From assembly GCF_040954645.1 (NCBI RefSeq), contig NC_092813.1, forward strand, positions 14,734,136 through 14,798,135: 64,000 bases of DNA. The letters run 5' to 3'. Every line of letters begins with the position of its first letter. The stretch's first letter is position 1. This document shows positions 12,735 to 54,600 of the stretch, one piece after another. The notes beneath the pieces were generated by a model that was not told where the DNA came from, ran no database searches, and saw nothing but the letters and a program-made list of their open reading frames with translations. Both the position numbers and the translations under genes were made by a program. This DNA comes from Diabrotica undecimpunctata. Lineage: Eukaryota > Arthropoda > Insecta > Coleoptera > Chrysomelidae.

Positions 12735-12769
<35 letters not shown>

Positions 12770-12791
12770 TATTAATATATATTAATATATA

Positions 12792-12872
<81 letters not shown>

Positions 12873-13219: not shown

Positions 13220-14990
13220 TGTAATGATCTTTCTTTTATCTTAGTAGAGATTGTTAGCTGTACGTCAGTGGTAAATTTACTGGCTTCATTTAGAGGGTCG
13301 TTGGTGCCTAAGGAATTTTCGAGAAATGTTTCAAGATAATTCTAGAAAACCCTAATTTTTGTGTTTATATAGGATTTGAGTGCAGCTTTTAGTTCGAAAT
13401 AGTTTGTAGAAGAGTTCGGATAATTGGTATCTTGTGAAACTGAGGATGAATAAGGAAAAGGTGAAGGAAGAAAAGAGTATATATGGTTAGGTCCAGATTT
13501 GTTGCAAAACTTTTATTTTATAAGTATAACCTTTTGATTAAAAAAGGGATTGGATATTTTAAGGTTATTTTTTATTAACAATTTTTTTTTCAAACTAGAC
13601 TTGGGCTAGTATTTGAAGTACATAAAGTTTTCTTACTTAATTAAATATCGTGTCTAAATTTGGCAAAAGATGAAGTAAAAATATACATAGAGCAGGAAAA
13701 ATTAATAAATGCGAGAGAAACGGAGAAATTCTATTCATCATGTATTCTGTGATTAGATTTGACATCAGAAGATTTATCAGAGGATGCACTTATATATACT
13801 CTTGTAAGTCGGAGGTAGGCTGTTCTTTTAACTTTTTTAAGATTATAGTGATAAGGTTTTTTAGTGATCTTTTCCTTGTACCTATGTAGAGCTGCAATAA
13901 TTTCTTTTAAATATAATCTATGTTGTAGGATTTTTAAGCTTCTTGTAGTGGGGTGATACATACAAAAGAGATCTCAAGAAATGCAATAAGTTGCGTGGAA
14001 TTGAGCGTAAAATGAGTCGGATTATCTTAATAGAGATAAAAGGAGGAAAAGGACTTAATAGAGCAAGAATACCGGATGAAGATAGAATGGTAGGAGTATC
14101 AGGAGGACTCTCATTGAAGTGTCCTCTTTTTTGTCCTACTGCCAACATGGGCTTTGAATTAGTACGACGAGGTATGGATAAATCCATAATGGCAGCCAGG
14201 ATGGGTGTGTAGTTAACGGAGATGGACTCAATTTCCGAAGATAGAAGTTCTTTTGATGAAGTTAAGGATTCAGGATTAAAGACTCCTTAGAGTTAGCTGA
14301 AAATGAAGGAGAGGGAGAAGCATTAGCTGCAATGAGTGTGTGATCTGGTCAACTGGAGACTTTGCGATCAAACTCCACGGTACGACCCGTAAGATTACAA
14401 AGAAAACACTATAGTCTGTCAGACAATAAAAATATGTTAAAGGATGTATTTTCATGGTTAATTAACAGAGAAGATTGCACTTCGAAGTCCTCCTTGTCAG
14501 GGATTACAAATGTTACCCTAGGACAACTCATGATATATGCCTATTGATCATCTGATGTTCCGTATCTTTTAGGGACTGTTCGATTAGTGAATGCGGGATG
14601 AAAGGATTTGAAATTGCATTTGAAATAAGGATTCTTTTAGTAAAATTAAGTTTAATTAGTTAAGTAATATTTTTTGGATAAACTATTTCACCAATTTCTT
14701 TAATATATTCAAATAAAACAGTATTCAAAATGGAGTGCATGACAATAACTTGTTTCCTTTTAGAAAACGAACGGGAAGGAGGTTTAGAGACTACGGCAAC
14801 GACATACGATTTTGGGTTGGAACTGAAGTTGTTTTGTGTAAATGTAAATATTTAATTGCTGTTCATGATGTGTAGTCCTGGTTACCCAGACCGTAACACA
14901 ATACCTAAACGTGACTACCTAATGGACCCTCTCCCAAACTGGAAAGAAAGAAACAAAGGATCTCACCTATTTCTTGGGATTTTCACTGGT
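13220..14990 (-). pseudogene. Captured I-like retroelement fragment (ORF1 and start of ORF2), copy 1
   Basis: Read on the minus strand, a 5' leader (14990-14880) precedes ORF1. The N-terminal part, near 14780-14650, shows SFSKRKQVIV and a residue pattern shared with ORF1 at 17911. The C-terminal part ends at 13731 with SDKSSDVKSNHRIHDE after a basic segment. Between them the frame is broken many times. From 13450 to 13220 a different frame gives the linker that lies between endonuclease and RT (KAALKSYINTKIRVF, NSLGTNDPLNEASKF). The 3' half is absent here, although copy 2 has RT and RNase H sequence at 44251-46765. Copy 1 also lacks about 120 bp of ORF1 kept in copy 2. Confidence 0.65.
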
Positions 14991-15189
14991 TTTCTTTAAT
15001 TACACCAATATAGCCACAATTAAATTCGACTATTGAAATACAAAACCAAACTTGGTACTCGTTTTCTTATCACATTGTGATTAAAGAACTTCGCTTCGTA
15101 TCGTTAACTCGTCGATGAATTAATTTATCTGTTTAACACTGTTTAAATCTTTAAAATCCATGAGGAACTTTAAAAAGGGTGTTTAACCT

Positions 15190-17560: not shown

Positions 17561-17598
17561 TCAATACAAACTAAAAATAGCTAAAGAAATACATATTT

Positions 17599-17610
17599 AA
17601 ATATCTAATA
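17599..17610 (+). repeat. Target-site duplication, left, of the I-like element
   Basis: AAATATCTAATA here, and ATATCTAATA again at 23131-23140 after the poly(A) tail. The empty site in copy 2 (near 51610-51630) carries one copy of it. Confidence 0.9.
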
Positions 17611-17910
17611 GACGATTCGACTCTGAACATAGTAGCTAATACGTGTTTTAAATCGAGCTCTCATAATTAATTTAAAAACTAGTGAAATACTAAAAATATT
17701 TTCGTTAATTAGTGATCCAGCAGTGAAATAACAAAAATAAACACAACAGAGATAGTAAGTTACTTTAAACATAACAGTTTTTACTATTATCAAATATTAT
17801 TTTGGATAACCTACAAAATCTAGGACAGGTATTTATACCAAACCTGTTCCATTACCGACTAAGAAGGTTGTTTGCCAGGACCGTACTCCAGTTACAAATG
17901 ATAATTAAAA

Positions 17911-19293
17911 ATGGATAGTTCTATTCAATCTGAAATTCCTACAACTAACAATACACCAAACAGCTCCTCATCATATCAATTTAATGGATCACCTACATAT
18001 TCTTTCGTAACCAATCAAACACCACAATCCAATATATTTCCATCAAGAAAACAAGCAATTATTTTTGATTCAATTAAAAATACCAAACTAGATGATTACT
18101 TGTCCGCTTTGAGTCATCTGATACAACCAACCCAGATATCCTTCTGTTCAAAATTATCAAATAATAGAGTATGTATTTATTTAGCAAACGAAAAACTAGT
18201 TGAGGATTTCATAAACAGAAATGAAAAAATTCAAATAAACCATCAACTCTTACAAGCTCGTAGACTAATTAGCCCTAGTCAGCGATTAGTATTGTCCAAT
18301 GTCTGTCCCTCAATCCCACACTCAGTCCTAATATCCGCATTAAAATCACATGGATTAAATCTTCTGTCACCTATAACATTCCTAAGAATAGGCACATCAA
18401 CACCACAATTCCAACATATTTTGAGTTTCAGACGCCAAACATACATATCTCCACTAAATAACCAGCCCTTACCTGATTCTTTTCTTATCACATATGAGGA
18501 AACGACATACAGAATTTTCCTTTCATTAGATAACCAAGCTTATCAAACATGTAAACAAACCAACCACTTAACAAAAAATTGTCCAATGTCTACTGCGATT
18601 ACAACAGATAATTCAACATCAAATAATCCAGTTCCAAATATAAACCCAATTAAAAATACAACTAATCTATCAACTCAAAAAACCCAGACAAACACTAAAC
18701 AACAACAATCAAAAGGAGAAAGCACACAACAAGAAACCCAACCACAAAATAACCAACAAGAAAAACCACACATGCAGCTAACCAAAGAAGATTCAGAAAC
18801 AACAAACTACCCAAAAATAGATATAGAAAATAAGGCGACGCATATAAACACAGGGAAAGCACAAAACAAACGCACAATCTCCCAAGTCTCTCCATCAGCT
18901 ACTACATCTACAGAGGAACCTACTTTTATTACACCAAAAAATAAAGAGAAGAAAGTAAAATCAGATCAAAATGTCAAACCACAAAAAACACTAGAAGAAA
19001 TGCTAAGATACTGTAAACCTTTATTTGAGAACCCAAATTCCAACTACCCTATAACTTACGAACAGTTATTAGACTTTTTCGAAAACTGTGAGAACTCACC
19101 AGACCCGTTAAGTGTCACCAAAATGTATACAGAAGAAACAGCAGAGGTCACAGATCTATTAACTAATATATACCCTTACCTAAAGGACCGAAAAATTAAA
19201 GTCAAATGCACTTGAATAAAAAATAAAATATTAAAGCAAATCAACTTAGACCTTCAAACAGACTTAGAAAGCGACGCATCAATAGAAAATTAA
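17911..19293 (+). pseudogene. IEL-1 ORF1 (gag-like RNA-binding protein) with one in-frame TGA
   Basis: The first 434 codons are open to a TGA at 19213-19215. The frame then continues for 25 codons (IKNKILKQINLDLQTDLESD..) to TAA at 19291-19293, and this tail matches the ORF1 end of the relative at 39223, so the TGA is a premature stop. The N-terminal 40 residues are Ser/Asn/Thr-rich. Residues about 45-215 look like the fold that carries nucleic acid in related ORF1 proteins. A zinc-knuckle-like motif near residue 212 reads Y-Q-T-C-K..H..C, with Tyr at the first Cys position. A Gln/Asn/Thr-rich linker and a C-terminal domain follow. The family role is packaging of the element RNA. Confidence 0.85.
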
Positions 19294-19296
19294 TAA

Positions 19297-22200
19297 CACA
19301 TCATTTTCAACTCTCTAATTCAATGGAACATAAATGGGTATTACACCCATTTAGAAATGTTAAAATTACTAATTTCAAAACATAAACCTAGTCTGATATG
19401 TTTACAAGAAACCCACTTCAAAAACAACAAAGCTCATGACTTGAAGAATTTCAATTGTTTTTTTAGAAATCGAGAAAATTCGAAAATTGCAAGCGGAGGG
19501 GTAGCAATCTACATAAAAGATAGCTTTGACGCTAAACTGATAAAACTCACAACAACTATTGAAGCAATTGGAATGAGAGTCACAGACACAATTTTTTTTT
19601 CAATTTGCAATATTTACATTCCCCCCAATAAGGAACCCGATTCAAAAGAAATTTCAAACTTATTAAATCAACTACCTGCTCCAAGGATAATAATTGGAGA
19701 TTTCAATGCACCTAATCCGTTATGGGGTTCAGCAAAACTAACATCTCTAGGTCGAAAAATAGAAAAAATAATAGAAGAAGTCAACCTAAATATTCTTAAC
19801 GACGGACAACATACGCGCTTTGACACAAGAACAGGTGAAGGCTCTTGTATAGATCTATGTATTTGCGAACCATCAATTACACATACTCTTACGTGGGATG
19901 TGTTACCAGATCTATATGATAGTGATCACTACCCTATCATAATAAGCAATGAACTACAATCAACTACCCCGCAACAACTAAAATGGAATTTAAAAGGCGC
20001 AAATTGGACAGAATTTCAAAATTACGTTGAAAACAACCTGCAAAACCTAAATGACAATGTAGATATAGACAAAACAATATACTCTCTGACAAACGTAATC
20101 ACAGAATCATCAAAAAAGTACGTTGGAATAATTAAGTACGATCACAAACATCAGTCGGTACCTTGGTGGAATCATGACTGCAAAGAAGCATTAAAACAAT
20201 CGAAACAAGCTTTTAATAAATTCAAACGACAAAAAACTCAAGAAAATTCTATAGAATTCAAAAAATTAAGGGCAGTCGCTAGGTATACCATTAAAAAAGC
20301 CAAACGTGACTCTTGGAGAGAATATGTCACCATAATACATAGTTCAACTCCTATAACAGCTATATGGAAAAAAGTCAACAAAATGTCTTGTTCCAAACCC
20401 TATAAATCAATAAACTTTTTAACTCAAAATAACACTATTTATAAAAGCCCAGAAGAAATATCCAATATACTAGCATCTACTTATGAATATAACTCAAGTA
20501 ACTTAAATTATACTTCCAATTTCTTAAAAATCAAAATAAAAGAAGAAAAAAATCCTATAGAATATTACGATCAAAACAATAACGATCTCAATATACAAAT
20601 AACAAAGGAAGAATTAGAAAATGTATTTCAGAATTGTAAGAACACTTGTCCTGGACCCGACAATATACCGTTTATATTTCTTAAAAATTTAGGCCCTCAA
20701 TCTAAAGAACACCTACTCAAAATCTACAATATAATCTTATCCAGAAACGTATTTCCTAAATCATGGAAAAATTCAATCATAATACCTATTCAAAAACCAA
20801 CTAAACCAAAATCAGATCCACAAACATATCGACCGATATCACTCACATGTAGCATAGGTAAAATATTAGAAAAGATAATAAACAATAGGCTTATGTGGTA
20901 TTTAGAAGCAAACAAATTAATTATTCCAGAACAATGTGGTTTCCGAAAACATCGCTCAACTTTAGACAATCTCGTTGACTTAGAATCAGAAATCCACGAA
21001 GCATTTGCAATAAAACAGCATTGTGTTGGAATATTTTTTGATATAAGCAAAGCATATGATACAGTTTGGAAATATTCAATCATTAAAACACTCAGCAGCT
21101 GGTTAATATGGGGTAACATATTAAAATACATTTCAAATTTTCTTGAAAACAGACAATTTCAAGTTCGAGTTGACGGAACATATTCTCAAACAAAAATTCA
21201 ACAAAATGGTATACCACAAGGATCAAATTTAAGCACAACTTTATTCTTAGTAGCAATAAATTCGATATTAACACAAATTGAAAACCCCGTCAAAGCTAGA
21301 TTATACGCTGACGACCTAGTTATTTTCTGTAGAGGAAAAAACATAGCAACGATTCACAATCACATTCAAAAAGCGTTAACACACATTGAGAAATGGTCAG
21401 CTACAAGTGGACTTCAGTTTAACACTACAAAAACGAAAGCAATCTGTTTCTCAAAGAGAAATCAAATCCAAACAGAAGAATTATATCTACACGAACAAAA
21501 ACTAGATTATGTAGAAGAAATCCGATTCTTGGGTATGACGTTTGATAAAAAATTAACTTGGAAGACACATATTCAACAGCTGAAAAAATCCTGTCTACCT
21601 AGTATAAATTTACTACGATCCCTTGCCTTTAAAAACTGGGGTGCCGATTATTCAAGTTTAATACTTATTTACAAATCCATAATTCGATCAAAACTTGACT
21701 ATGGAGCCATCGTCTACAACTCCTCCAAAAAAACACATTTGAAGTCACTGGATATTATCCAAAATAGATGTCTACGTATTTCTTTAGGTGCTCACTACAC
21801 AAGTCCCATTCAAAGTCTTTATTGGGAAAGTGGAGAACTTCCTCTTTCTTTTAGAAGACAATATCTAAGCCTAACATATGCAGCGGCAGTGTCATCAAAC
21901 CGAAATAATCCAATACTGCATAACGTTTTTGCTGATCGATTTACAAATAAATTCCAACAAACACATCAAATTGATCATCCTTTTTACTTTCGTGTAAAAT
22001 CATACTTATCCAAATTAAATTTTCAATTTCCAAAAACCTATGATACCTCTTCAATCCACAACCCAGCACCATGGACAATATCTATTCCTGATATCGACAT
22101 CAGTCTAACAAGCCTAAGAAAATCAGAGATATCATCAACCGTCATTAAACAAAAGTTTTATACACTATTAAACAGATATGGCAATACTTACAACGTATAC

Positions 22201-22992
22201 ACCGATGCGTCAAAAAATGAAGACAGAGTTGGAACAGCAATTTATTCGGAAGACTCCTCAGTTAGTTTCAAATTGCCATCAATTACAACCATCTTTTCGG
22301 CTGAATTATTTGCAATCCTAAAAGCACTATTGTTAATACAAAACAAAAACAAAGAAAGATATATAATAATCACAGATTCTTTAAGTTCATTATCCTCACT
22401 GACTCAATTGTACTGTGACAACCCCCTTCTACTTCTTATTAAAAAAGAACTTAAAAACATTGCAAATAAGAACATCCAAGTTCACTTTTTATGGGTGCCT
22501 TCTCATATAGGAATTGAAGGTAACGAAGTTGTAGATAAACTGGCTAAGAACGCACCAACTAACCCGATGTCCGAAGAAAGTAATATATTGGTACAAAACG
22601 ATTTAAAACCATACCTAAAACAAAAAATAATTCAAAAATGGCAAGAAACTTGGAACAACACTCCATCAAGGCTATACGAAGTCAACAAACATTCACATCT
22701 TTGGAAACCAAAAATAAAAGACAGGAGAGAGCAAGTGATACTTACCCGTCTCCGTATCGGCCATACACGACTTACTCATGACTATTTATTACAGCGCAAA
22801 AATAAACCAGTGTGTGAAGTGTGCAACAGTGTTCTAACGGTTAAACATTTTTTAATACAGTGTCCCAAATATAATAGTGAACGACTCAAATATAACATAC
22901 CCAACTCCCTAAGAGATGCCCTAGAAGAAAATACAGACACCCGAAAAATATTTTCCTATCTTAAAGACTGCCAACTCCTTCAAAAGATCTAA
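19297..22992 (+). CDS. IEL-1 ORF2: endonuclease, reverse transcriptase, RNase H
   Basis: The frame is open from 19297. The first ATG is at 19357 (1,211 codons follow), but the endonuclease motif with its catalytic Asn (QWNING, 19321-19338) lies upstream of that ATG, so the true start is probably non-AUG or a lost AUG next to the ORF1 stop. Numbering from 19357: endonuclease QETH 17-20, GDFNAP 114-119 and SDHYP 189-193; RT FDISKAYD 561-568 and YADD 650-653; RNase H YTDAS (Asp950), SAELFAIL, ITDSLS and WVPSHIGIEGN; C-terminal Cys1153, Cys1156, His1164, Cys1169. All catalytic residues expected for the family are present. It nicks target DNA, copies the RNA and probably degrades the hybrid. Confidence 0.93.
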   Translation, partial: HIIFNSLIQWNINGYYTHLEMLKLLISKHKPSLICLQETHFKNNKAHDLKNFNCFFRNRENSKIASGGVAIYIKDSFDAKLIKLTTTIEAIGMRVTDTIFFSICNIYIPPNKEPDSKEISNLLNQLPAPRIIIGDFNAPNPLWGSAKLTSLGRKIEKIIEEVNLNILNDGQHTRFDTRTGEGSCIDLCICEPSITHTLTWDVLPDLYDSDHYPIIISNELQSTTPQQLKWNLKGANWTEFQNYVENNLQNLNDNVDIDKTIYSLTNVITESSKKYVGIIKYDHKHQSVPWWNHDCKEALKQSKQAFNKFKRQKTQENSIEFKKLRAVARYTIKKAKRDSWREYVTIIHSSTPITAIWKKVNKMSCSKPYKSINFLTQNNTIYKSPEEISNILASTYEYNSSNLNYTSNFLKIKIKEEKNPIEYYDQNNNDLNIQITKEELENVFQNCKNTCPGPDNIPFIFLKNLGPQSKEHLLKIYNIILSRNVFPKSWKNSIIIPIQKPTKPKSDPQTYRPISLTCSIGKILEKIINNRLMWYLEANKLIIPEQCGFRKHRSTLDNLVDLESEIHEAFAIKQHCVGIFFDISKAYDTVWKYSIIKTLSSWLIWGNILKYISNFLENRQFQVRVDGTYSQTKIQQNGIPQGSNLSTTLFLVAINSILTQIENPVKARLYADDLVIFCRGKNIATIHNHIQKALTHIEKWSATSGLQFNTTKTKAICFSKRNQIQTEELYLHEQKLDYVEEIRFLGMTFDKKLTWKTHIQQLKKSCLPSINLLRSLAFKNWGADYSSLILIYKSIIRSKLDYGAIVYNSSKKTHLKSLDIIQNRCLRISLGAHYTSPIQSLYWESGELPLSFRRQYLSLTYAAAVSSNRNNPILHNVFADRFTNKFQQTHQIDHPFYFRVKSYLSKLNFQFPKTYDTSSIHNPAPWTISIPDIDISLTSLRKSEISSTVIKQKFYTLLNRYGNTYNVYTDASKNEDRVGTAIYSEDSSVSFKLPSITTIFSAELFAILKALLLIQNKNKERYIIITDSLSSLSSLTQLYCDNPLLLLIKKELKNIANKNIQVHFLWVPSHIGIEGNEVVDKLAKNAPTNPMSEESNILVQNDLKPYLKQKIIQKWQETWNNTPSRLYEVNKHSHLWKPKIKDRREQVILTRLRIGHTRLTHDYLLQRKNKPVCEVCNSVLTVKHFLIQCPKYNSERLKYNIPNSLRDALEENTDTRKIFSYLKDCQLLQKI

Positions 22993-23130
22993 AACGAACA
23001 TTGTAACACAAAGATATTATTATTATTATTGTAAACTAATGTATATTTTACTTATTGTATCTATATTGTAATAATCTAAATACGCTAATGACCCTGCGTG
23101 GTTGATGCGTTAATAAAATAAAAAAAAAAA
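22993..23130 (+). other. IEL-1 3' UTR and A-rich tail
   Basis: It carries a TTATTATTATT run, the conserved GACCCTGCGTGGTTGATGCG near 23091, and AATAAAATAAAAAAAAAA directly before the target duplication. The conserved tract is probably the recognition signal for the element's own RT; that role is inferred. Confidence 0.75.
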
Positions 23131-23140
23131 ATATCTAATA
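23131..23140 (+). repeat. Target-site duplication, right, of IEL-1
   Basis: ATATCTAATA repeats 17601-17610 exactly; preceding A residues merge with the tail. Confidence 0.9.
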
Positions 23141-23378
23141 CTTTGTTTATGTTTATTAACTTGATATTTATTCACTAATTTGTTTTTCCGAAATTTATGA
23201 TATCATAATTATATTACTAACGAGAACGTAAAATTCAAATTAATGCATCTCGAATATGACGCATTCACCCTGGCGATAATAAAAAATGAATGAAAAAAAA
23301 TAAACATTTTTTTAAGTTAATTACGTAACGGAAACGGTGTAAAATAAAAGAATATAAAAAAAGTTTCTATTTACTTAC

Positions 23379-23502
23379 CAGAGTGTAATATCCATGTTTG
23401 ACAAGCCGAAGGATTTTTTGTCGGAAATCTGAACATTCTTAATCCATGAATTTTGTATGGTGATAAACCACATTTGTAATAACAACAAATATTTCTAACC
23501 AT
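23379..23502 (-). CDS. THAP-domain protein exon 1, copy 1
   Basis: The ATG at 23502 opens MVRNICCYYKCG, then RMFRFPTKNP and QTWILHS, and the exon ends at a donor G|GTAAGTAA (boundary 23379). The Cys cluster, the RFP and the Trp are the first half of a THAP zinc finger. The exon is 124 bp, leaving one base, which is the phase needed by exon 2 at 11265. The intron would be 12.1 kb and holds all the inserted DNA between. The second copy (51878-52000) begins MAGNICCYYKCG but has lost one base in an A run. It probably encodes the N-terminus of a P-like transposase or a THAP protein derived from one. Confidence 0.7.
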
Positions 23503-24329
23503 CTAATTATAACTTTGTGTTTTGAAAAGGAGTTTTTAAAAATTATTTTATTTACTTTTTGAAAATACAAGTTTACAAAAATTAACAAACAAAAGTTATG
23601 AAGCAAAAACTATGAAGCAAAAGTTAAGTAGCAAAAGTTATATTAATTAAAATGTTCCTCTATTTATAATATTGTATTGCGTAGTTTCTATTGTCCTACA
23701 ATGTGCAGATTCTGTGGAATCCAGTGGCGTAACTATCTGTAAAAAATCATTTATTTATTATGGAAGTAACATTATTTTAATTTAAAATCACTTTTTTCAA
23801 ATATTATCGAATGTATGTATTATCCGGTAAAATTTATTTCTAAATACCTAATTTGTTCATTTCTCATACAAATGTTTTTTGTTTTAAACACATAGAATTA
23901 AAATGTTTTACTTACCTCGGACCAAATTTTTGTAATACAATTCCAAATAAAATAAGATAATTAAATTCTTTAAACATATTTAGATATAGGCAGATTTAGA
24001 AGCCACAGCACGTTTATGTACAATTTTAGTTGACACGATATTTACTAGTTCTATTTTAAATGAATAATGTGATTCATGGTCTGTCTTTTGTAACATTTTT
24101 ATTTGTAAGTAAACCTGTTGCTACTATGTCAGTGAAATATTGCAACGCTGTTGAATTTAATTCAGGGGATCAAAAATGGACGTTTAGTTTAGTACTTTTT
24201 CACATAGCACCATCTAGTATAACGTATATCAAACAAACAATGGTATATTAAAATCTATTGAGACAGAAAGAGTGGTGACATCTCGTGACTGTCTCAATTA
24301 GAATCAAACAAATTTATACATTGCGTTGG

Positions 24330-24353
24330 CTAACTAGTCCCATTTAAACAATG
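24330..24353 (-). repeat. Right terminal inverted repeat, P-like copy 1
   Basis: It matches 52609-52632 at 23 of 24 bases and is inverted relative to 42987-43010. Its partner at the left end of copy 1 is not in the window. Confidence 0.8.
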
Positions 24354-42286: not shown

Positions 42287-42986
42287 TCAATTATGTATAT
42301 TCAAAATATGTAATACTTCTTTTCCATACCTGCAATTAGGTGACTCCGTGAGACCCAACTTGTACATACGAAGGGGGGTAAGAGCATGATTAGATCTTAA
42401 TCTGTTTTTAACCCTTATGAAATGGCGATTTGATAGAGTGTGAAACCATCTGATTATGGGTATTTCAGGCTGCATTTGCTTGTAATTATTTCCAGTTCTC
42501 GTGTTTCGATAATATGTTTGCCATTTTTCTTTTTGATGCCGTTTACTAATTATATCAATGTCTGAAAAGGGGAGTAAGTTCAAGGGAGATTCTCCGCCTA
42601 TCTTTAGGGCAGATATGGCTAGGCTATCTGCTATTTCATTGCCATTAATGCCCGCGTGTCCCTTTATCCATGATATAATAATGTTTTTTCCTAAATTTGT
42701 AATTTTATTGTAAATAGTCATAATTTCTAGTTCTATATGATTTAGTTGTTTGGACCTATGTACGTTTGTTAATCTGTCGATGACAATCTTACTGTCTGTA
42801 AGTATTATGCAGCTGTAGGGTTCGTTACTATGCATACGCCTTAATGCAAGAAGAATCGCTGTCATTTCAGCAGTGTATATCAATGATTCAGCTGGCAATT
42901 TCAATAATTTTTTAAATCCACTTTGAATAATATTTAATGCACATCCTACTTTGTTTTGTACTTTAGATCCGTCTCTATAGTAAAAC
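42287..42986 (-). pseudogene. NLR-5 RNase H domain and C-terminus
   Basis: FYYRDGSK opens the domain (catalytic Asp), then YTAEMTAILLAL (Glu), ILTDSKIVI (Asp) and WIKGHAGINGNEIAD (His and Asp), so the active site is complete. The C-terminal segment RVKNRLRSNHALTP..LGLTESPNC ends at TAA 42287; the usual Cys/His tail is incomplete. The frame joins to RT sequence at 52633 with one TAG at the junction. Confidence 0.8.
42980..42986 (+). repeat. Target-site duplication, left, of P-like copy 2
   Basis: GTAAAAC, repeated at 52633-52639 directly outside the right terminal repeat. Confidence 0.8.
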
Positions 42987-43010
42987 CATTGTTTAAATAG
43001 GACTAGTTAG
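42987..43010 (+). repeat. Left terminal inverted repeat, P-like copy 2
   Basis: 24 of 24 bases are complementary to 52609-52632. The 11-mer CATTGTTTAAA is found again in the internal palindrome at 43504-43537. Confidence 0.85.
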
Positions 43011-43248
43011 ACAATCCTTATGGAACAAACGTTTGACTTTTACTCTGCCGTCATATGGCGGCCTCTAGTCATAAATTTAAAAAACTATTAACAGAAACTT
43101 AATTCTCGGCAGGATTCTATTCGAGTATATTTTTACCTGTCTCATGACTAAGACAAACCTGTAAACGGATGCCAGATTGTGAAGAAAATATAAGACTTTA
43201 ATAAAATGCTTATTGTTATTATCGTTGTATGCGTCTAGTGAAAGATAA
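43011..43248. other. Left subterminal DNA of P-like copy 2
   Basis: No ORF. It contains GTCATATGGCGGCCTCTAG near 43050. The equivalent part of copy 1 would lie left of the window. Confidence 0.5.
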
Positions 43249-43865
43249 CTTGACTATTTCGAGAGAATATTTCAAATTGTTTTTATACTTTGAGACTTGC
43301 TAAATCTAAATCGGTTAGTAATCTATTTAAATAAAGTATGTAAATGCTGACTTTTTTTTAATTTTTATTAGTTTATCAGATATTTATTTTGGTTATATGA
43401 TTTGCTAGAAAAGGATTAAATATTTAATTGAAATACACTCGATTGCTATCGTCTTAGAACACTCATGCGGAGGTTTATTTTTTAGTCAAGATTTAAGTTT
43501 TATCATTGTTTAAAAAAGAAAATCTTTTTAAACAATGGTTTTATGTATGTTTTGAGAAAATTAAATTTTCAATCTTTTAATCTTTAAAATGACGTTTGAA
43601 AATATAGTAAATATAAAAAAACACATCGATATGCCACAACAAGAGGCAACACATATTTAGGGACAAATTAATCTATGTGTTGGGATAAAAGTAATAATAA
43701 TTAACAACACTTTAATAAATAGTATCCTTTATTTTATTTATTTATGTATTTTGTAATATAAACACCAGTTTTGTATTTCTGTTTATATGAATGAGAAATT
43801 TAAATGAATGAGCTGTTAATAATGAAATAATTTTAAATTACAAAGTGATAGAGATACAATTAGTG
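43249..43865. repeat. P-like transposon copy 2, block A
   Basis: Counterpart of 2421-3067. It carries a 13-bp inverted repeat CATTGTTTAAAAA..TTTTTAAACAATG at 43504-43537 that reuses the terminal repeat sequence. It joins block B directly at about 43865. Confidence 0.7.
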
Positions 43866-43929
43866 ATAAAAATTGATTGTAACATTGTTTTCATGAACTA
43901 AAATAAGCAATGTATGTAGTGCGAAACAC

Positions 43930-44123
43930 TATTGGCACCGTGGATGGTTGTTTTGCTATCGAAAACGTATGAAAAACGCGTGGTGTCGTTAACAAACCTT
44001 CCTCTTCTACCTCACTATATTTTTTTGGTTTGCATTTAGATAGTTTTGGTCAAAATGCTTACTGCATAGAAATTTTTTTTTTTTTTAAATCGGGTAGCTC
44101 CAGACTTTCCAATGCAGCATTAC
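43930..44123 (-). pseudogene. THAP-domain protein exon 2, copy 2, internally deleted
   Basis: The acceptor AG lies at 44124-44125 and the exon reads GNAALESLELPDLK, a 14-A run (10 or 13 would be in frame), then FLCSKHFDQNYLNA and, in a shifted frame, YSEVEEEGLLTT. The leucine-rich part present in copy 1 is missing beyond about 43930. Same role and phase as the exon at 10684-11265; this copy is not functional. Confidence 0.65.
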
Positions 44124-44250
44124 CTACAACAATATTATTATTAACACAACTGAAAAAAAAAGGCAATTTTCTGCACAATAAAGTAAAAAAACAATTTAAG
44201 TTCTGTATTCAAAATATAAATAACTTGGCAGTTATGCCAACATATTTTTA

Positions 44251-46765
44251 ATTTTTTTGGTAGTATGGGTATGGGTATGGGATCTAGTCTTTCACCCATT
44301 TTAAGTAGCTATATCAAGGATGATGTTATCAGTGATTGTATCAACAATTGCACTTTTTTCATTCCTTTTTTTAAAGATATGCAGATGATTTAGTTTTGGC
44401 ACTTCCTAAACACAAAATTATTGAAATAGTCAACATTTTCAAGTATCATAATCAACATATACAATTTACAGTTGAGGAAGAGGTAGACAATTCTCTAGTT
44501 CCTTAGAGTAGGTTTCAAATCCAGTGCTTTATACAGGATGGTGAATTGTTTGCAGTTGGTAAGTTTGATATGGTTGATTCGTAGTTGTAATAGTCGATGC
44601 TTCTCTTCTAATTATGAAGTCTAGGGAGAGATGACCAATAAAAGATTGAAGTTTATGAAAAGTTGTTTTGCTCTTTTGCTCTAAGTTTTGTCAAGTATCC
44701 TCTACCGACTTTTTAAAAACGAATTTCGAGATTCGTTAGCTAGTTGAATTGGAGTGACTTCAGTCACCCCAAGGTTGGTAGCTTCTTTGGCAAAATGATC
44801 TGCTGTTTTATTACCAGTAATTCCGGTGTGAGAAGGCAGCCATATGAGAGAGACTGTTACATCGTAAGCAGAGAGATTTTGGTATATGTCATAAATGTTT
44901 TGAACTAATAGGTGGTCAGTGAAAATTGTATTGACTAAATGGATATATGAAAGATAATCTGAACAAATGGCAATATGTCTGTTTTGATGTGAGATGCATT
45001 TAAAAGCCAACACAATACTATATAGTTCACCTGTGCAAACGTTGCATATTAAGGGTAACCGAGATGATCTTACAAGTTCATGTTTAGTGGTTACTGCACA
45101 ACCAATACTAGTGGTAGTTTTAGAAGCATCTGTATAGAGAATTAAATTCTAAAAATGCGTTCTTTATGAGAAGGTTAGAAGATTCAAGTTTGTTAAAAAT
45201 AATGAGTGAGGTATATATTGAAGGGATATCTTTAGCCCAGAGGGGAAGTAAAGGTAGAGGAAATAAACTAGTCAGAAAAAGGTCAATATTTTTAAGTAGT
45301 GGACAAATTAATTGAGGTATAGGTTTTATGATAAGGTGTTGGTTATTGTTAGTGGAAGAAAACGACATTGTGGCAATTAGGGAATGAACAAGATTACATG
45401 GATTTGCAGATGTTGATGCAGCATACGAAAGTAGAAGTGATTATCGTCTTAGGGTAGGAGAAAGTTCATTAGATTCACGGTATACACTCTCAATAGGACT
45501 AAAGCGAAAAGCGCTCAGACCTAGAAGTAGTTTTATTGGCACCCCATTGAAGATGACTGAGGGTTTAAAAATGTTCAACTTTTTAAAACAATTGATTTTA
45601 AGTTCAGAGATTCGATTTTTTCAATTTAATCTGGAGTCAAACATAAAACCGAGAATTTTACAATAATTAACACCAGAAAGTAGAGAATTGTTAAATAAAA
45701 TTTGGGGTAAGGGAGTGAAAATCCCTATGGAAAATTTTATTAATTTGGTTTTGCTCTCAGAGAGTGATAATCCTAGTTTGTTAAATCTATCTTGAAGTAG
45801 ATTTACTACACTTGATGGCAAGAATGAATAAAGTTAAACTTAATGCAGATTCTAAAGGGACACCTTAATTTTGAGGAAGAGATTTACCCGAAAAAGTTTA
45901 CCCTTGGCAAGGACTTTAAAGATTCTTTCAATTAGATATTTTTTTACAAATGAGAAATTATTACCATTTAAATTATAGTGGGAGTTTTTGTCAATGATTG
46001 CTTTTCTGGAGATTGAACAAAAAGCCCCTTTAACGTTAAATATAGTTGCTATGACATCTTGTTTATTATAGATTGCTTAAGAAATGTGTGTTTGAAAAAT
46101 AAAAAAGTTATCAATAGTAGACCGATTACGTCGGAAGCCGGATTGAGCGTCGGGAATAATATTATACTGTTTAACGAACCACGTGAGTATTTCATTGATC
46201 ATTGTTTCAAGAAGTTTGCAGGTAATACAAGTAAGAGAAATCAGACGAAAGATATTGGAGTTATAGAGGGCTGGTCAGGTTTTTTAATTGGAATGATTAT
46301 AGAATTGCACCAAACATCTGGGAATTTTTGTGTGTTCTAGATAAAGTTATAAATTTCGAGAAGTTTGGAGAGAGATGTATTAGAGAGATTTTTTAAAAAT
46401 ATATAAGGGATATCATCGGGATCATCAGCAGATTTTGTAAATGAAAACAAGGTAAATTTTAGTTTATTTAGGGTAAACAAGCCGTTCATAAACTTGACAT
46501 CGTGTGGAGTTGACGAGATGGTGGAGAAAGATTGAGCGCGTAAAGAACTGGGAGTAAAAGCTATATTACTTTTATTGAATCTGTCTTCAACCCCATTAGC
46601 GAGTGTGTCAGAAATGAATTGACTGTCAGAGATAACTGTGTTGTTGAAGAAGATGATAGGAGAAACAGTTAGGATATAGGAATGAAGGATGACTAAATTC
46701 ATAGGATGAAGGTTAGTTTTATTGCCTTGGATTTGTGAAACAGTTTTTTTTATAAATGAGAGTGG
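44251..46765 (-). pseudogene. I-like retroelement ORF2, RT to RNase H, inside P-like copy 2
   Basis: On the minus strand a linker (KTVSQIQGNKTNLHPMN, 46740) precedes RT (SADDPDDIPYIFLKNLS, SIIIPIKKPDQPS). The region that should carry YADD is deleted: the VPLESALSLTLFILAI motif near 45850 jumps to NLLQDRFNKLGLSLSESKTK. RNase H follows with CSDYLS and WLPSHTGITGNKTADH (44830) but a poor first half. The 3' end is near 44251-44262 in an A/T run. It is probably the 3' half of the same captured element whose 5' half is at 47060-49000, as the order and strand fit; copy 1 lacks it. Confidence 0.65.
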
Positions 46766-46995
46766 AGTTATCATATCCACTGGTAACTTTAACATCCTAA
46801 TATATAAAACTAAATAATGTAAACTAAATTGTAACACATAACTTTTATCGGGTTTTTACCCAGATATTTAGTGGCTCAAAAAATGTACACCTAGACACTG
46901 ATGATGGAATATGGATTCCGAAAACAATTTGTCTTCATGACATAGCCCGTTTGGGTATTTTAATTTATGTACCTTTTATAAAGGATTTTAACAAA
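46766..46995 (+). repeat. Dispersed repeat R, copy 2
   Basis: Matches 12981-13210 and more weakly 26787-27005. It separates the two parts of the captured retroelement, so it either inserted there or replaced part of it. Confidence 0.55.
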
Positions 46996-47059
46996 ATTTT
47001 TTTTTGTAATGATTTTTCTTTTATCTTAGTATAGATTAGGGCAAGATCTTTCATTAACG

Positions 47060-49000
47060 ATTGTCAGCGGTATGTCAGTGGTAAATTTACTGGCTTCATT
47101 TAGAGGTTCGTTGGTGCCTAAGGAATTTTCGAGAAATTTTTCAAGATAATTCTAGAAAACCCTAATTTTTGTGTTTTTATAGGATTTGAGTGCAGCTTTT
47201 AGTTCGAAATAGTTTATAAGAGAGTTCGGATGAGTGGTATCTTGTTGTGAAACTGAGGATGAATAATGAAAGGGCGAAGGAAGAAAAGAGTATATATAGT
47301 TAGGTCCAGATTTGTTGCAAAACTTTTATTTTAAATTTTCTGCCAGAATCTTGGCTGTCTCTTAATTGTCAAGGATAACCTTTCGATTAAAAAAGAGATT
47401 GGATATTTTAAGGTTATTTTTTGTTAACAATTTTTTTTTCAAACTAGACTTGGGCTAGTATTTGATGTACATAAAGTTTTCTTACTTAATTAAATATCGT
47501 GTCTAAATTTGGCAAAAGATGAAGTAAAAATATACAGAGAGCAGAAAAAATGAATAAATGCGAGAGAAAGAGAGAAATTCTATTCATCATGTATGCTGTG
47601 ATTGGATTTGACATCAGAAGATTTATCAGAGGATGCACTTATATATACTCTTGTAAGTCGGAGATAGGCTGTTCTTTTAACTTTTTTAAGATTCTAGTGA
47701 TACGGTTTTTTAGTGATCTTTTCCTTGTACCTATGTAGAGCTGCAATAAGTCCTTTTGAATACCATCTATGTTGGAGGATTTTTAAGCTTCTTGTAGTGG
47801 GGTGATACATACAAAAGAGTTCTTAAGAAATGTAATAAGTTGCGTGGAATTGAGTGTAAAATTAGTCGGATTATCTTTGTAAATCATTTCTATAGCGGAA
47901 ATATAATAAGGTTTCATCGAGTAATCCAATCAAAGATTAGATTTGGACATTTTTTGGCTGGTTTCGGTGGCATTGAAAATGTCGAAGGAGGAAAAGAACT
48001 TAATAGAGCAAGAATACCGGATGAAGATAGATGGTAGGAGTATCATGAGAACTGTCATTGAAGTGTCCCTTTTTTTGTCCTACTGCCAACATGGGTTTTG
48101 AATTAGTACGACGAGAGATGGATAAATCCATAATGGCAGCCAGGATGGGTATGCAGTTAACGGAGATGGACTCAATTTCCGAAGATAGAAATTCTTTTGA
48201 TGAAGTTAAGGATTCAGGATTAAGGACTCCTTAGAGTCAGCTGAAAATGAAGAAGAGGGAGGAGCATTAGCTGCAATGAGTGTCTGATCTTGTCAACTGG
48301 AGACTTTGCAATCAGACTCCACGGTACGACCCGTAAGCTTACAAAGAAAACACTATAGTCTGTCAGAGAATAAAAATATTTTAAAGGATGTATTTTCATG
48401 GTTAATTAACAGAGAAGATTGCACTTCGAAGTTCACCTTGTCAGCTATTTCAAATGTTACCCTAGGAAAACTCATAATATATGCCTATTGATCATCTGAT
48501 GTTCCGTATTTTTTAGGGACTGCTCGATTAGGAATGCGGGATGAAAGGAGATACATTTGAAATAAGGATTCTTTTGGTCGCAGAAAGAAGCCTGCAGATC
48601 AAGATGACGGTGGAATTAATTATGACGTTCGGTGTATTAGTTGATCAACGATGTCGGTAGAAGTGAGGAAAATGCAGATTCGATTATTCGAAATGCGAGA
48701 TGTAAAAGTAATATTTTTTGGATAAACTATTTCACCAATTTCTTTAATATATTTAAATAAAACAGTATTCAAAATGGAGTGCATGACAATAACTTGTTCC
48801 CTTTTAGAAAACGAACGGGAAGGAGGTCTAGAGACTGCGTCAACGACATATGATTTTGGGTTGGAATTGAAGTTGTTTTGTGTAAATGTAAATATTTAAT
48901 TGCTGTTCATGATGTGTAGTCCTGGTTACCCAGACCGTAACACAATACCTAAATGTGAGTACCTAATGGACCCTCTTCCAAACTGGAAAGAAAGAAAAAA
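47060..49000 (-). pseudogene. Captured I-like retroelement fragment (ORF1 and start of ORF2), copy 2
   Basis: Counterpart of 13220-14990. It keeps about 120 bp of ORF1 (48590-48710) that copy 1 lost, which read ITFTSRISNNRICIFLTST, the expected continuation after the N-terminal block, and also 115 bp near 47875-47990. Stops and shifts are frequent. 5' leader near 48900-49000. Confidence 0.65.
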
Positions 49001-49229
49001 AGGATCCCACCTATTTCTTGGGATTTTCACTGGTTTTCTTTAATTAGACCAATATAGCCGCAATTAAATTCGACTATTGAAATATAAAACCAAATTTGAT
49101 ACTCGTTTTCTTATCACATTGTGATTAAAGAACTTCGCTTCGTATTGTTAACTCGTCGATGAATTACTTTATCTGTTTAACACTGTTTAAATCTTTAAAA
49201 TCCGTGAGGAACTTTAAAAAGGGTGTTTA

Positions 49230-51560
49230 ACCTTTGACAGTTATTTGACGTTTTTTGAATCGATTATTTGAAGCTTTATTTATAAACTTCAACATTTTAT
49301 TAAAAAAAATAACAGTTTGAAAAAGTGCTTTTTAGCTTGTAAATATTTATACTACTTTTGATATTTTTCATGTCATACGGCTGTACGTAGGCTCAATGAA
49401 AAGCTGGTGTAAAAGCACTTTAAAAAAAAAACAGAAATTTCCATAACCAATAACAAGAAACAAGCTGAGAAATTGCAGCGGACAGATCTCCCTTGCATTT
49501 TTCTGTGGCGATATTTTACGAGTACCATTATTTTAATTTTTCAAAACTAATTTACTTCTTCACTGTATATGCCATTTATAAATCGAATTATAAAATTTAG
49601 ATATTATTTTACAATGTGTTCAATTGTCAGCTTTTAATGTTAATAAACAATGAAAATATTGGCAATTTCTTAAATAAGAAAAAAAATGCTATTTGATTTC
49701 CTCTGGGCCATAGAAGGTTTTGTTTTTTTTTTAAATGTTTTTGTTATTAGCTTTATATTGAGCCTGCATACAAGTGTATGACATAAAAAAGTCAAAGTTA
49801 TTAGAAATTTTTATATGCTAAAAATTTGTTATTCTTCAAACTGATTTTTAAAAACAAACTTAATATAATCTTGATGTTTTTTTTTAATAATTTAAAACGA
49901 AGCCATAAAAATCGATATCTATTTACAAAATAACCCTAGAGTGACTGTTTGGACAAGTACAGTTGTTTAAATAATCGGTCTCCTGGATAAACAAATTGAA
50001 TAACTCATAAACTGTATGGTCGTTCTGTATGATATTTAGCACACTTTAAAAACTCATTAACTGCCATAATTTTAAATAGTTATTACATATCGTTATGCAG
50101 AAAAGAAAGTTATTTATATTTAAATTATTTATATTTATATTAACATTTATAAATTTTACTTTAAAAGTAAGGGTTTTTAAATGATCTCGGTCAATTCTTT
50201 ATGTATTTTAATTATAAAAATATCAATATTAGAGAACATTTTATGATCTATAACTTTTATTTTAACCATATATCTCTAACATGAATAAGAAACGTTTTAT
50301 GCGCATAAACTTTTTTCACTTTTTACGATTGTTTAATAAAAAAGCAAAGCAAAATTAGCTGAAGTTCACATAATTGTCATCAGCTACCCCTCATATACCT
50401 TTTAGAGACTTTAAATACCTGTTTAAGATTGTTTCAGCTTTTTTAGAGTTGTAGATCATAAAAAGTTATGTAATTTTTGAGAGTATCCAAATTAAAATAC
50501 ATGAAACTATTAACCGAAATAGTTGCAAAAAAAAACCTAATTTTTGCAGTTATTTATAAATTATAATAACTCTTTTTTGGGCAAGGACATGTAACATAGC
50601 TCCTTGAAATTATGGAAATTAATAAGTTATTAAAGTGCGCTAAATATCAATCAGAGCAAATAGTTTATAGGTTATTTAATCTGTTTATAAACATTTATAA
50701 TAACGTTGATATCGTTTATGCCACAAACTTATTTAGAGGCTTATGAAAAACTGGTGAAAAACACACTTTCTAAAAAAAACAGAATCTTCTATGACCATTA
50801 CTAGGCAAGAGAGCATTTTATATTTAAAACCAAAGAATTTTATTCTTAAAATTATACTTCCATTGTCTATTAACAGTAAGAGCTGAAAATTGAAGGGACC
50901 CTAAATGAAGATCTGAAATTGTGCGTTCCAACTTACATAATGGTATATGCGGTAAAGAAGTAAAAATTTATAACCCGTTAAAATGATGGTATTCGTAAAA
51001 TTCCGCTTCGGAAAAGTAGAATGGAGAACCATTTGAGCTAGGTTTTTTTTTTAGATTTGAACTTTTTCAAAACGAAGCGCGATTGCAGAATTAGCAATAT
51101 CTTGGCTTCTGTGACACGTAAAACATAATTTTTTTTTTCAAACTGGGATAGCTCAACAAAAAGTTGTTTACATAATCGCTTTCTACGATAAACAAATCGT
51201 CACTATTTTTATTAGTTACATTAGGTACATACCATTATGCAAAAACAAAGTTATTAAAATTTATAAATTTCTGCAAAATCAAGGGTTTTTTGCAACTATT
51301 TTGGTGAATTCTTTATATATTTTAATTTAGAAACTCACAAATGGAAGAACTTTTTGAATCTACAATTTTTATTTTAACTATTTTTCTCTAACTGGATAAA
51401 AAACATTTATAGCCAAAATCACCTGTATGTCTTCACAGATTTATTATTAACTAACCCTCATATATCTTTTAGAACCTTCAAATATCTGTATAAAATTTTT
51501 ACGTGAAACCAATAATTTTTTCCCAGATGGACCTTTGTATAAATTAGTTCTCCGATAAAG
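49230..51560. repeat. Foldback satellite-like DNA, copy 2
   Basis: Aligns with 15190-17560 throughout with small indels, for instance the extra TTTATATTTAAATTATTTATA near 50115 and a loss near 51405. Confidence 0.6.
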
Positions 51561-51877
51561 ATGAACTTATTTCTACTTTTCAATACAATAACTAAAAATA
51601 GCTAAAGAAATACATATTTAAATATCTAATACTTTGTTTATGTTTATTAACGTGATATTTTTTATTCACTAATTTGTTTTTCCGAAGTTTATTATATCAT
51701 AATTATAATACCAACGAAAACGTAAAATTCAAATTAATGCATCTCGAATATGACGCGTGCACCCTGGCGATAATAAAAAATGATGAATGAAAAAAAAATT
51801 AAACATTTTTTCAAGTTAATTACGTAACGGAAACGGTGTAAAATAAAAGAATATAAAAAAAATTTCTATTTACTTAC

Positions 51878-52000
51878 CAGAGTGTAATATCCATCTTTGA
51901 CAAGCCGAAGGATTTTTGTCGGAAATCTGAACATTCTTAATCCATGAATATTGTATGGTGATAAACCACATTTGTAATAACAACAAATATTTCCGGCCAT
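51878..52000 (-). pseudogene. THAP-domain protein exon 1, copy 2
   Basis: MAGNICCYYKCGLSPY, RMFRFPTK, then one A fewer than copy 1 shifts the frame before the Trp. The donor GTAAGTAA after 51878 is intact. At 123 bp rather than 124, its splice phase no longer suits exon 2 at 44123. The intron would be 7.75 kb. Confidence 0.7.
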
Positions 52001-52608
52001 CTGTAAAAAACCATTTATTTATTATGGAAGTAACATTATTTTAATTTAAAATCACTGTTTTCAAATATTATCGAATGTATGTAGTATCCGGTAAAATTTA
52101 TTTCTAAATACCTAATTTGTTTTCTCATACAATGTTTTTTTATGTTTTAAACACATATAATTAAAATGTTTTACTTACCTCGGACCAAATTTTTGTAATA
52201 CACTTCCAAATAAAATAAAATATTTAAATTCTTTAAACTTATTTAGATATAGGAAGATTTAGAAGCCACAGTACGTTTATGTACAATTTTAGTTGACACG
52301 ATATTTACTAGTTGATAGTAATAACTCTATTTTAAATGAATATCTTAATTGATTCAAGGTCTGTTTTTTGTAACATTTGTAAGTAAACCTGTTGCTACTA
52401 TGTCAGTGAAATATTGCAACGCTGGTGAATTTAATTCAGTGGATCAAAAATGGACGTTTAGTTTAGTCCTTTACGTTTTCACATAGCACCATCTAGTATA
52501 ATGTATATCAAACAAACAATGGTATATTAAAATCTATTGAGACAGAAAGAGTGGTGACATCTAGTGACTGTCTCAATTAGAATCAAACAAATTTATACAT
52601 TGCGTTGG

Positions 52609-52632
52609 CTAACTAGTCCTATTTAAACAATG
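52609..52632 (-). repeat. Right terminal inverted repeat, P-like copy 2
   Basis: Exact complement of 42987-43010, followed by GTAAAAC. Confidence 0.85.
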
Positions 52633-54600
52633 GTAAAACTAATAATGTGGCCATTTATGCCGTATAAATGATTGAAAAGCGACTGGATCTAAATTACTGT
52701 CCATAAAAAAGGTATTAATATGTTTTGAGAAAAGCTCTTCTAATACATGGGAATACATAGATGACCTTGTGGAATTTGATGTTATCTAGAGAAAAGACAA
52801 ATTTTCGTTTTAGATTCTGATATTTCTAAACCAATACTTTCATAGTGATTAAGAACAGCTTTAATTGAGAGATCAAAATTATTTTTACATATATCCAATG
52901 ATTTGTGGGCTGTGTAAACTACTACATCATCAGCATATTGAATAATTGTTGTTGTGCTATTAATACAATTTTCTAAATCCATATTATATAAAATAAATTG
53001 TATTGGGCTTAATATTCTACCCTGTGGAATTCCTATATTTGTAAGACGTGGTGGAGAGATGGAATGGTTGATTCTTAAAAAAGTTTATCTATTAATGTAC
53101 AGAGTCCTTAGAAAGCTAGCTATGGTGATGGGGAACCCGATATCTAATAGGTTTTTATGCATAATGTCCAAGTTAACGGTATCGAATGCAGAGGAGACAT
53201 CAAGAAAAGCAGCCATAGTATACATATTATCAGTACAGTTTATTAGTATGTATGAGACTAAGGCAGTTATGGCATCTTGAGTTGATTTTGATTTTCGAAA
53301 TCCATACTGAGATTTTGGGAACTAACCAATGTTCAATTCTATTTTTTATTAATCTTTCTAACGTCTTTAGGAAGCAAGAGGCTAAGAATATTGGCCTATA
53401 TGATCTACTGCAATTTTCTAGTTTCCCAGGTTTTTTAATAGGTATTATTCCTTCCAGCTGTCTGGAATTTGTGACGTATCATTCCAAATGTCATTAAAAA
53501 TATTTAATAATGATATTTTATAGTGGTGAAGAATATGGTATATCATGGAATATGAAATATCCTGGTCTTTACCTGGAGCACTACTATTTTGTTCACTAAG
53601 TACTCGCTCTAACTCCCACATTTTAAATGGTTCTTCTAAGCCAAACCTACCTCTTGACACTGTTTCGCTGTATTCTAGAAAATGTTTTGAAGGTACCCAC
53701 TGTGGAGATATTTTCTTATGAAATTCATCTAGCCAGCTGGATTCTGGATCTATTGGAATCTTCTTGGACTGTTTGCGATTTTTAAAAGCGTTTACTTTCT
53801 TCCATACTTCACTGATTTGTGTTTTTGAATTTAGCCTTTCGCAGTATTCTACCCAATGCTGTTTTTTCTTATGTTTGAAGAGTTTTTTTGCGACAGCGTC
53901 AAGTCTCTAAAATTCAACTAAATTATATCTTGTAGGATTTTGTTTATATTTTCCATATGCAATTTTTCGGTTATCAGCGGCGGTTTTGCAACTTTCACAC
54001 CACCATTGGTTCGAAATTCGTCTCTTATGTATTCCGTCAGATGAAAACTTTGATATTGCTAAATTGGCTGCTTTATTAATGTTTGCTATTAGAGTTTGAT
54101 TGATAGTTTCCAGGAGAATTTTCAGCTTCTAGTACAGATGTGTATAATTTCCAATCGGCCTTGTTAAGATTTCAGATCTTGTGACAGTTTTGAGTTGGAA
54201 ATGAAGTTATATGATCTGTTTCTATGTTAATGATAATCTAAAGATGATTGGATCTATGAGGGTCTTGTAGGACTCTCCAAGTAAAAAATTTTGAAATATC
54301 AAATTTTGAAATACAATGATCAATACATTCTAAAAGTTTTTTACCATAGCTGTCTTCAATTTCACAGCCCCATGCGATACTGTGGGAATTAAAACCCACA
54401 CCAATAATAAACGGTTTAGGTATGTCTTCAAAGAATTCCAACCATTGACTTTCAGATATCTTGGTCTTTGATTCAATGTAAACTAACACAATATTGGTGA
54501 GATTTTTACCTCGGAAAATTTTAACTGAAATATATTTATGAGTGAAAGGATATCTATTTTTAAGATTTATTTCTTCGCATCTAAAGTTTTGTTTTATTAT
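52633..54600 (-). pseudogene. NLR-5 ORF2, endonuclease end, linker and RT
   Basis: Minus strand. The endonuclease C-terminal half (54590-54200) shows PKPFIIGVGFNSHSIAWG, where GDFN has become GVGFN. The linker at 54130-53700 includes KIPIDPESSWLDEFH. RT: SSAPGKDQDISYSMI, FRKSKSTQDA, AAFLDVSSAFD, GIPQGRILSP and QYADDVVVY (52925), with stops near 53465, 53115 and 52780. It ends at 52640 in FIRHKWPHY-stop, which continues in frame as FYYRDGSK at 42986. The 5' end is cut at about 54600 by the tail of the next retrotransposon. Confidence 0.8.

Follow-up and report, generated by a model that had tools for sequence, protein, structure and literature searches.

The window, a stretch of 64,000 nucleotides of Diabrotica undecimpunctata (contig NC_092813.1, positions 14,734,136 to 14,798,135), holds one complete copy of a giant DNA transposon and, at lower coordinates, a second, interrupted copy. 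Their features are as follows:

2420..24353: second, interrupted copy of the giant element, left end absent
42980..42986: left target-site duplication GTAAAAC
42987..43010, plus strand: left 24-bp terminal inverted repeat (TIR), at the gene's 3' side
43011..43887: left subterminal region, taken to be 3' untranslated, shared by 20 of 20 copies
43504..43537: 34-bp palindrome, both arms with the element's 11-bp outer end, GTTTTAT twice as flanks; probably an old miniature insertion
43888..44125, minus strand: remnant of the second THAP exon (C half of THAP plus spacer), limits approximate
44256..44560, plus strand: short Penelope-type reverse transcriptase-like stretch, found by eye, aligned in 20 of 20 copies
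44600..48900, minus strand: dead LINE within the giant intron, outer limits approximate
49305..51500: AT-rich direct and inverted self-repeats, foldback-like
51878..52000, minus strand: first THAP exon, here with a 1-bp shift; its ATG follows an AG acceptor and its donor is GTAAGT
52609..52632, minus strand: right 24-bp TIR, at the gene's 5' side
52633..52639: right target-site duplication GTAAAAC

In the complete (first) window copy, the TIRs at 42987-43010 and 52609-52632 are reverse complements without a mismatch (family end CATTGTTTAAATAGGACTAGTTAG), and the similarity between the left and right ends drops beyond 24 bp. The perfect ends flanked by GTAAAAC that an earlier note, made from the letters, had described were thus borne out, as was the retrotransposon it had taken to be split, given that the flanks joined by one GTAAAAC read HKWPHY-stop-FYYRDGSK in a single frame. 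With LINE proteins (n = 120), 21 of 33 BLASTP alignments crossed this rejoined insertion junction. Two TIR-like pairs with the same 7-bp flank were found in the 64-kb window, against none in each of 20 single-base shuffles.

Between the ends, none of the minus-strand frames of at least 35 aa tested from the left subterminal region had a Pfam match, the remnant at 43888..44125 has neither coiled-coil part nor transposase core, and at 44703-45148 the dead LINE retains a piece of RNase H (37.6 bits). The stretch at 44256..44560 resembles Penelope-type reverse transcriptase in a motif judged by eye. The description of the element as P-like, THAP-bearing, 9.6 kb long, devoid of a transposase core and carrying other mobile DNA inside a giant intron was upheld on all points, and no P-core Pfam domain was detected in the subset of frames tested from both window copies. 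It had also been called composite, which holds for the nested LINE but not as a peculiarity of the window copy, since the nested LINE is common to 21 of 21 copies.

The note had proposed a genome search with the 24-bp end, and this search, allowing up to 3 mismatches, returned 746 matches versus 4 for a reversed-pattern control, while the left-end 40-mer and the right-end 41-mer occurred exactly 265 and 203 times, respectively (controls 0). Twenty complete copies were taken from the genome, a selected sample drawn from the 22 exact-ended pairs that do not exceed 9,934 bp, which come in turn from 34 exact-ended pairs among 100 listed of the 746 ends. All 20 had perfect 7-bp target duplications and flanks of their own, and LINE sequence, foldback region and the junction between them were common to all, so that the common structure expected of a shared consensus was recovered genome-wide. 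Hundreds of ends, duplications in 20 of 20 copies and a common interior therefore indicate a high-copy family and no single accident. Unpaired 24-mers, or a lack of further copies with target duplications, had been named as what would refute the claim, and the search did not refute it, although not every end is paired (for 55 of the 100 exact left ends listed, the next 30 kb hold no exact right end). The commonest length is 9–10 kb, and among 45 exact-ended pairs obtained from 100 listed left ends the shortest measured 7,931 bp, with no MITE-sized copy below it. No stop-to-stop frame exceeded 172 aa in the 20 genome copies and the first window copy (21 of 21), and the family would therefore depend on a transposase from elsewhere.

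The duplicated 7-mers differ (19 distinct among the 21 copies, window copy included) and follow the pattern N-T-A-N-T-A-N: of the 21, 20 have T as the second base and 17 have A as the sixth. In these copies, chosen for exact TIRs, 2 of the last 100 positions vary versus 320 of 2,483 inside; variation is not lowered in the left 150 bp (20 of 150 positions, p 0.90). Two subfamilies, A and B, differ by 1.8–5.9% in 31 of the 35 intervals of 250 bp lying outside approximately 45990-46900, and in subfamily B the LINE has been partly lost or replaced. The idea that the element includes a working LINE was rejected given this loss and the lack of any frame above 172 aa in the 21 copies, and separate LINE insertions, considered from the A–B divergence, were rejected as well, the source being the replaced or unalignable stretch near 45990-46900.

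The second window copy has its right TIR at 24330-24353 (1 mismatch) and diverges from the first by 5.7% over 6,459 compared positions. The LINE flank at its truncated left side recurs at 6 of the 20 loci with 93.7–99.5% identity, for which reason an independent transposition was rejected for this copy; its branch was therefore copied as a larger block. It retains a fuller second THAP exon, at about 10682-11280, and its joined exons match the THAP domain (37 bits, 84 of 87 positions, with an X at a slip), as does, closer to the cut-off, the first exon of the first copy joined to the second exon of the second (24.5 bits, cut-off 23.9). The THAP-domain exons claimed for the element accordingly stand on the second copy, but the first-copy exon at 51878-52000 is shifted by 1 bp relative to the second window copy and 9 of the 21 copies, and an intact THAP protein in the first copy was rejected because of this shift and the deletion. 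Protein searches with the THAP/coiled-coil product gave no match at E ≤ 1 among 104 candidates (first exon in the shifted frame) and among a further 1,796; an exact TIR scan of viral and genome collections and a search of Rfam returned 0 matches each.

The second of these exons is related to the beginning (locus L053, around C5:4571003) of a 902-aa stop-to-stop frame on contig C5, in which the P-superfamily RNase H domain PF21787 scored 125.9 bits and of which the first 257 aa were read. In tblastn, the second THAP exon product, a query mixed from several copies, matched L053 with 92% identity over 156 aa (E 5e-103), and at the DNA level L053 is 93.4% identical to the second window copy over 606 positions and 86.8% identical to the first over 355. 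By these sequence comparisons, the THAP/coiled-coil exon is akin to a P-type transposase frame. The P-type helix-turn-helix PF12017 in the related transposase stayed just under the cut-off (22.7 vs. 23 bits), and the match to the solved P transposase 6p5a was weak (E 0.19). The autonomous copy with a P core that the note had suggested looking for was only partly found, in the form of this frame and its exon-like THAP/coiled-coil part; no exact family end lies near it at C5:4.57 Mb, a part of C5 that was fully covered for exact matches. Another exon match, at C2:87344618, ends at the same residue as that of L053 and is preceded, 10.66 kb upstream, by an exact right-type end in the matching orientation; PF21787 is not among the matches listed there. 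Genome-wide, with 150 of 1,400 candidates scored, the PF21787 profile matched at least 151 times, often in stop-free frames, and transposase sources therefore exist in the genome; by-eye comparison placed none of those listed on C1 and C2 inside the 20 copies. Other candidates bearing a core are located near C11:31528030 and C10:572620.

We consider it very probable that the giant element represents a core-deleted, non-autonomous cut-and-paste family of the P superfamily, multiplied as a whole and moved by a transposase encoded elsewhere; membership in the superfamily is supported by the THAP domain, the 7-bp duplications and the kinship of the exon with the PF21787-bearing frame. The ancestor would have been a THAP-domain transposase coded in at least two exons with a long intron between them, whose catalytic core was lost by deletion while ends, THAP exon sequence and intron were retained. 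The LINE and other repeats would have landed in the intron and decayed, after which the complete 9–10 kb unit was presumably amplified to hundreds of copies, inserting at weakly palindromic, AT-rich sites with 7-bp duplication. Both this order of events and mobilisation in trans, by a P-superfamily transposase from elsewhere in the genome that would recognise the 24-bp ends, are what we infer.

It is improbable that the family still yields a THAP/coiled-coil protein acting as an end-binding repressor, like KP of the fly P element: all 21 copies retain both splice signals (AG acceptor, GTAAGT donor) around the first THAP exon, 9 of them have this exon in an open frame and a long second exon persists at some group-C loci (L039), but the first exon is shifted in 12 of 21 copies (in L015 with stops besides), the 350-bp coiled-coil piece is present in none of the 21, and the shifted exon was already there while subfamily A multiplied. 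A transposon of another superfamily, e.g., hAT, with a captured THAP gene fragment would agree with the lack of a long frame in 21 copies and of a Pfam P core in the tested frames of the two window copies, and is nevertheless very unlikely, as all 20 copies have 7-bp duplications, against the 8-bp ones of hobo, a hAT element (PMC3276498 and PMC4168063, in excerpt), and the exon is part of a frame continuing into a P-type core, which fits a core deletion instead of a capture. Spread by segmental duplication, to which the recurrent left flank of the second window copy lends some colour, can hardly be credited for the family, given separate flanks and duplications at 20 copies and 19 distinct 7-mers among 21. 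Within the preferred reading of a core-deleted P-type family, it is conceivable, if rather doubtful, that size itself is preserved, with the dead LINE and foldback intron as permanent cargo of a 9–10 kb unit; short deletion copies would then be absent or lost, as the interior (repeats or spacing) might aid transposition or gap repair might copy faithfully.

Among known systems, 1360 elements are much smaller than the giant family. By description, in the excerpts of the sources cited here, 1360/Hoppel (P superfamily, Drosophila) resembles it in a palindromic target and in duplications of modally 7 bp (98.2% of 279 insertion sites; PMC3276498), and Galileo (P superfamily, Drosophila) in mostly 7-bp duplications, a consensus GTANTAC near N-T-A-N-T-A-N (PMC4168063) and nested transposons. 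Galileo differs in its long, internally repeated terminal repeats, whereas the giant family has 24-bp TIRs and internal repeats. At the single window site, ATAGTAAAACTAA agrees with the published P-group tendency ANAGT..ACTNT save for the final base. The P element likewise has internally deleted non-autonomous copies, some of which, e.g., KP, encode a short protein (PMC7776569, in excerpt), but fly P derivatives of 0.5–2.8 kb with 8-bp duplications, as given there, contrast with copies of mostly 9–10 kb, 7-bp duplications and no short pairs seen. In Anopheles, according to the excerpted account (PMC1562414), P families also have high-copy non-autonomous relatives, but the reference P copies (4,178–7,545 bp) and P-MITEs (205–2,450 bp) are smaller and have 8-bp duplications. 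In the open-access literature, a scope that excludes most subscription journals, no large P-type family carrying a LINE was found.

What is unusual in the giant family is its large size, the absence of short copies among 45 pairs and the amplification of a dead LINE as cargo. The fly P element measures 2.9 kb, and the giant element is more than three times as long and has no long frames in the copies examined, yet it reached hundreds of copies with its length mostly kept, while the P-type derivatives described in the excerpted publications reach a few kilobases at most. What limits the size of elements in P-type transposition now becomes testable, as does whether a DNA transposon can carry and multiply a piece of a retrotransposon, and a genome with many stop-free P-type transposase frames may be a good place to look for active P systems beyond the flies.

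The element at 42987-52632 (the first window copy) is framed by a perfect 24-bp terminal inverted repeat (TIR), starting with CATTG and ending with CAATG, and is flanked on both sides by GTAAAAC, a 7-bp duplication. When the element and one GTAAAAC were taken out, the broken LINE frame was restored, and 21 of 33 alignments with 120 database LINE proteins spanned the rejoined junction; of the nine organism names attached to the LINE relatives, eight were arthropods and the ninth a bacterial MAG, which makes an arthropod host probable. The perfect ends with a 7-bp duplication and the retrotransposon split by the insertion, both claimed in the earlier note, were thus borne out. Paired TIR-like ends with exact 7-bp flanks occurred twice in the window and not once in 20 single-base shuffles, the second case being a 34-bp palindrome within the first window copy (43504-43537). 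Each arm of this palindrome corresponds to the outermost 11 bp of the TIR, GTTTTAT flanks it on each side, and it is retained with few changes across the 20 fetched copies described below.

Searching the 1.74-Gb host genome, in which the window belongs to contig C11, with the 24-mer, as had been proposed, gave hundreds of matches (376 forward and 370 reverse with up to 3 mismatches, vs. 2 and 2 for the control), while longer end-specific patterns counted 265 exact left and 203 exact right ends. Among 100 listed 24-mer places, 34 correctly oriented pairs lay up to 30 kb apart, with lengths from 7,931 to 21,709 bp (21 of them 9,272 to 9,934 bp). Of 100 listed exact left ends on contigs C1-C5, 45 could be paired with an exact right end at most 30 kb away, 28 of these pairs measuring 9.0-10.1 kb and none less than 7,931 bp; the other 55 had no such partner, which weakens statements on family length. 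The 24-mer lacking paired ends, which the earlier note had set against its own reading, did not turn out to refute it, though not every end is paired.

Of the 34 pairs, 22 had exact ends and a length of up to 9,934 bp; 20 of these were fetched, and all 20 copies carry perfect 7-bp duplications, so that the anticipated further copies with target duplications do exist. With the window copy included, position 2 of the target site is T in 20 of 21 and position 6 is A in 17 of 21. Two groups hold 20 of the 21 copies, L015 standing apart from both: group A (n = 11, one of them the window copy; 1.4% difference on average) and group B (n = 9, 1.35%), the 6.1% difference between them being inflated by a single replaced or unalignable LINE stretch. 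At this stretch (window 45990-46900), subfamily B has a different sequence, a deletion (L025) or unalignable sequence, with an identity of about 0.6. Common to all 20 fetched copies are the stretch at 44256-44560, LINE sequence, the junction between LINE and foldback, and the AT-rich self-repeat (foldback) region itself, with part of the LINE absent or replaced in group B; the claim that the element carries other mobile DNA holds for these copies too, and the shared LINE sequence argues that the unit multiplied after the LINE had entered. The 44256-44560 stretch adjoins the LINE and by eye resembles a fragment of a putative Penelope-type reverse transcriptase. At C1:17971923-17990647, two complete copies (L011 and L012, 1.7% different) lie head to tail, separated by ATGATAG alone, which also stands at both outer sides.

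No open frame exceeds 172 aa in any of the 21 copies, in agreement with the claim that no transposase core is visible. The gene of the element comprises two exons that together encode one THAP domain:

51878-52000, minus strand, THAP exon 1, near the right end
about 43888-44125, minus strand, THAP exon 2, near the left end

Every one of the 21 copies retains the acceptor and donor of exon 1, whose frame is open in 9 copies; the remaining 12 have a shifted frame (L015, among them, also has stops). A 350-bp piece of exon 2 is missing from all 21. This piece is retained in the second window copy (2420-24353), with whose exons Pfam THAP matched at 37 bits, confirming the THAP-domain exons reported earlier. 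Scoring 40 of 181 candidates gave at least 40 genomic matches to the 350-bp piece, that of the window among them; a left TIR lies nearby at 9 of 20 fetched loci, exact in 8, and these loci were designated group C. Several exact left ends without an exact right partner adjoin group-C exon matches, which show no right end in the lists of exact ends.

The second window copy is joined on its left side to a LINE, a flank also found at 6 of 20 fetched loci with 93.7-99.5% identity (L030, L032, L034, L035, L036 and L038; five on C11, one on C88); this LINE flank with the left side of the copy is a segmental duplication. Inserted in the second window copy are:

17611-23128, LINE with open frames of 436 aa and 1,231 aa
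9331-10512 and 11388-12539, inverted repeat copies, about 77% alike, near long TA microsatellites

The 17611-23128 LINE is bordered on either side by a repeat of roughly 11-12 bp (AATATCTAATA), which fits a target duplication and whose left limit is blurred by an A-rich tail.

The genome is P-rich: PF21787, the P-superfamily RNase H domain, has at least 151 matches (150 scored of 1,400 candidates) and was absent from 14 control genomes in a profile search. Many matches sit in stop-free frames of 400-900 aa of several kinds. For 10 matches picked among the long-frame ones, 1.55 kb upstream was fetched. One of these regions, L053 on C5, encodes the THAP/coiled-coil exon of the family (92% over 156 aa, E 5e-103, the query being pieced together from more than one copy) and forms the start of a stop-to-stop frame of 902 aa that carries the RNase H domain; the first 257 aa of this frame were read. 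Among the nine remaining regions nothing similar emerged, the top one being L055 with 33% over 66 aligned positions at E 0.001. At the DNA level, L053 is 93.4% identical to the second window copy over 606 positions, stopping at the core start, and 86.8% to the first over 355 positions. The P-type HTH domain scored 22.7 bits (cut-off 23) in this related transposase, and among solved structures P transposase came closest by sequence (E 0.19). Next to PF21787 places at C11:31528030 and C10:572620 the exon product matched again, and it had another match at C2:87344618, which terminates at the same residue as that of L053, has a stop in its frame, shows no PF21787 among the matches listed, and has an exact right-type end on the fitting strand 10.66 kb upstream.

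The autonomous copy sought by the earlier note was therefore found in part, as a 902-aa frame with a related exon, with no exact family end near it in the lists of exact left, right and group-C left ends. The C10 and C11 candidates likewise had no exact group-C left end nearby (all 49 places listed), so that trans-mobilisation, in which a transposase of the L053 type would mobilise the window family, is an inference. The simplest reading of these alignments is that the family would derive from an L053-type gene through core loss.

As far as the consulted portions of the cited papers describe them, the family resembles 1360 and Galileo in duplication length and target pattern (PMC3276498, PMC2775673 and PMC4168063), KP-type P derivatives in core loss (PMC7776569) and P-MITEs in amplification (PMC1562414); it differs in being mostly 9-10 kb long and LINE-carrying, with no short forms among the pairs seen. 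Slightly weakened by the 92% coming from a mixed query and by the Pfam core test covering part of the frames only, the best explanation overall, which we still hold to be highly probable, is a core-deleted, non-autonomous family of the P superfamily that would be moved in trans.
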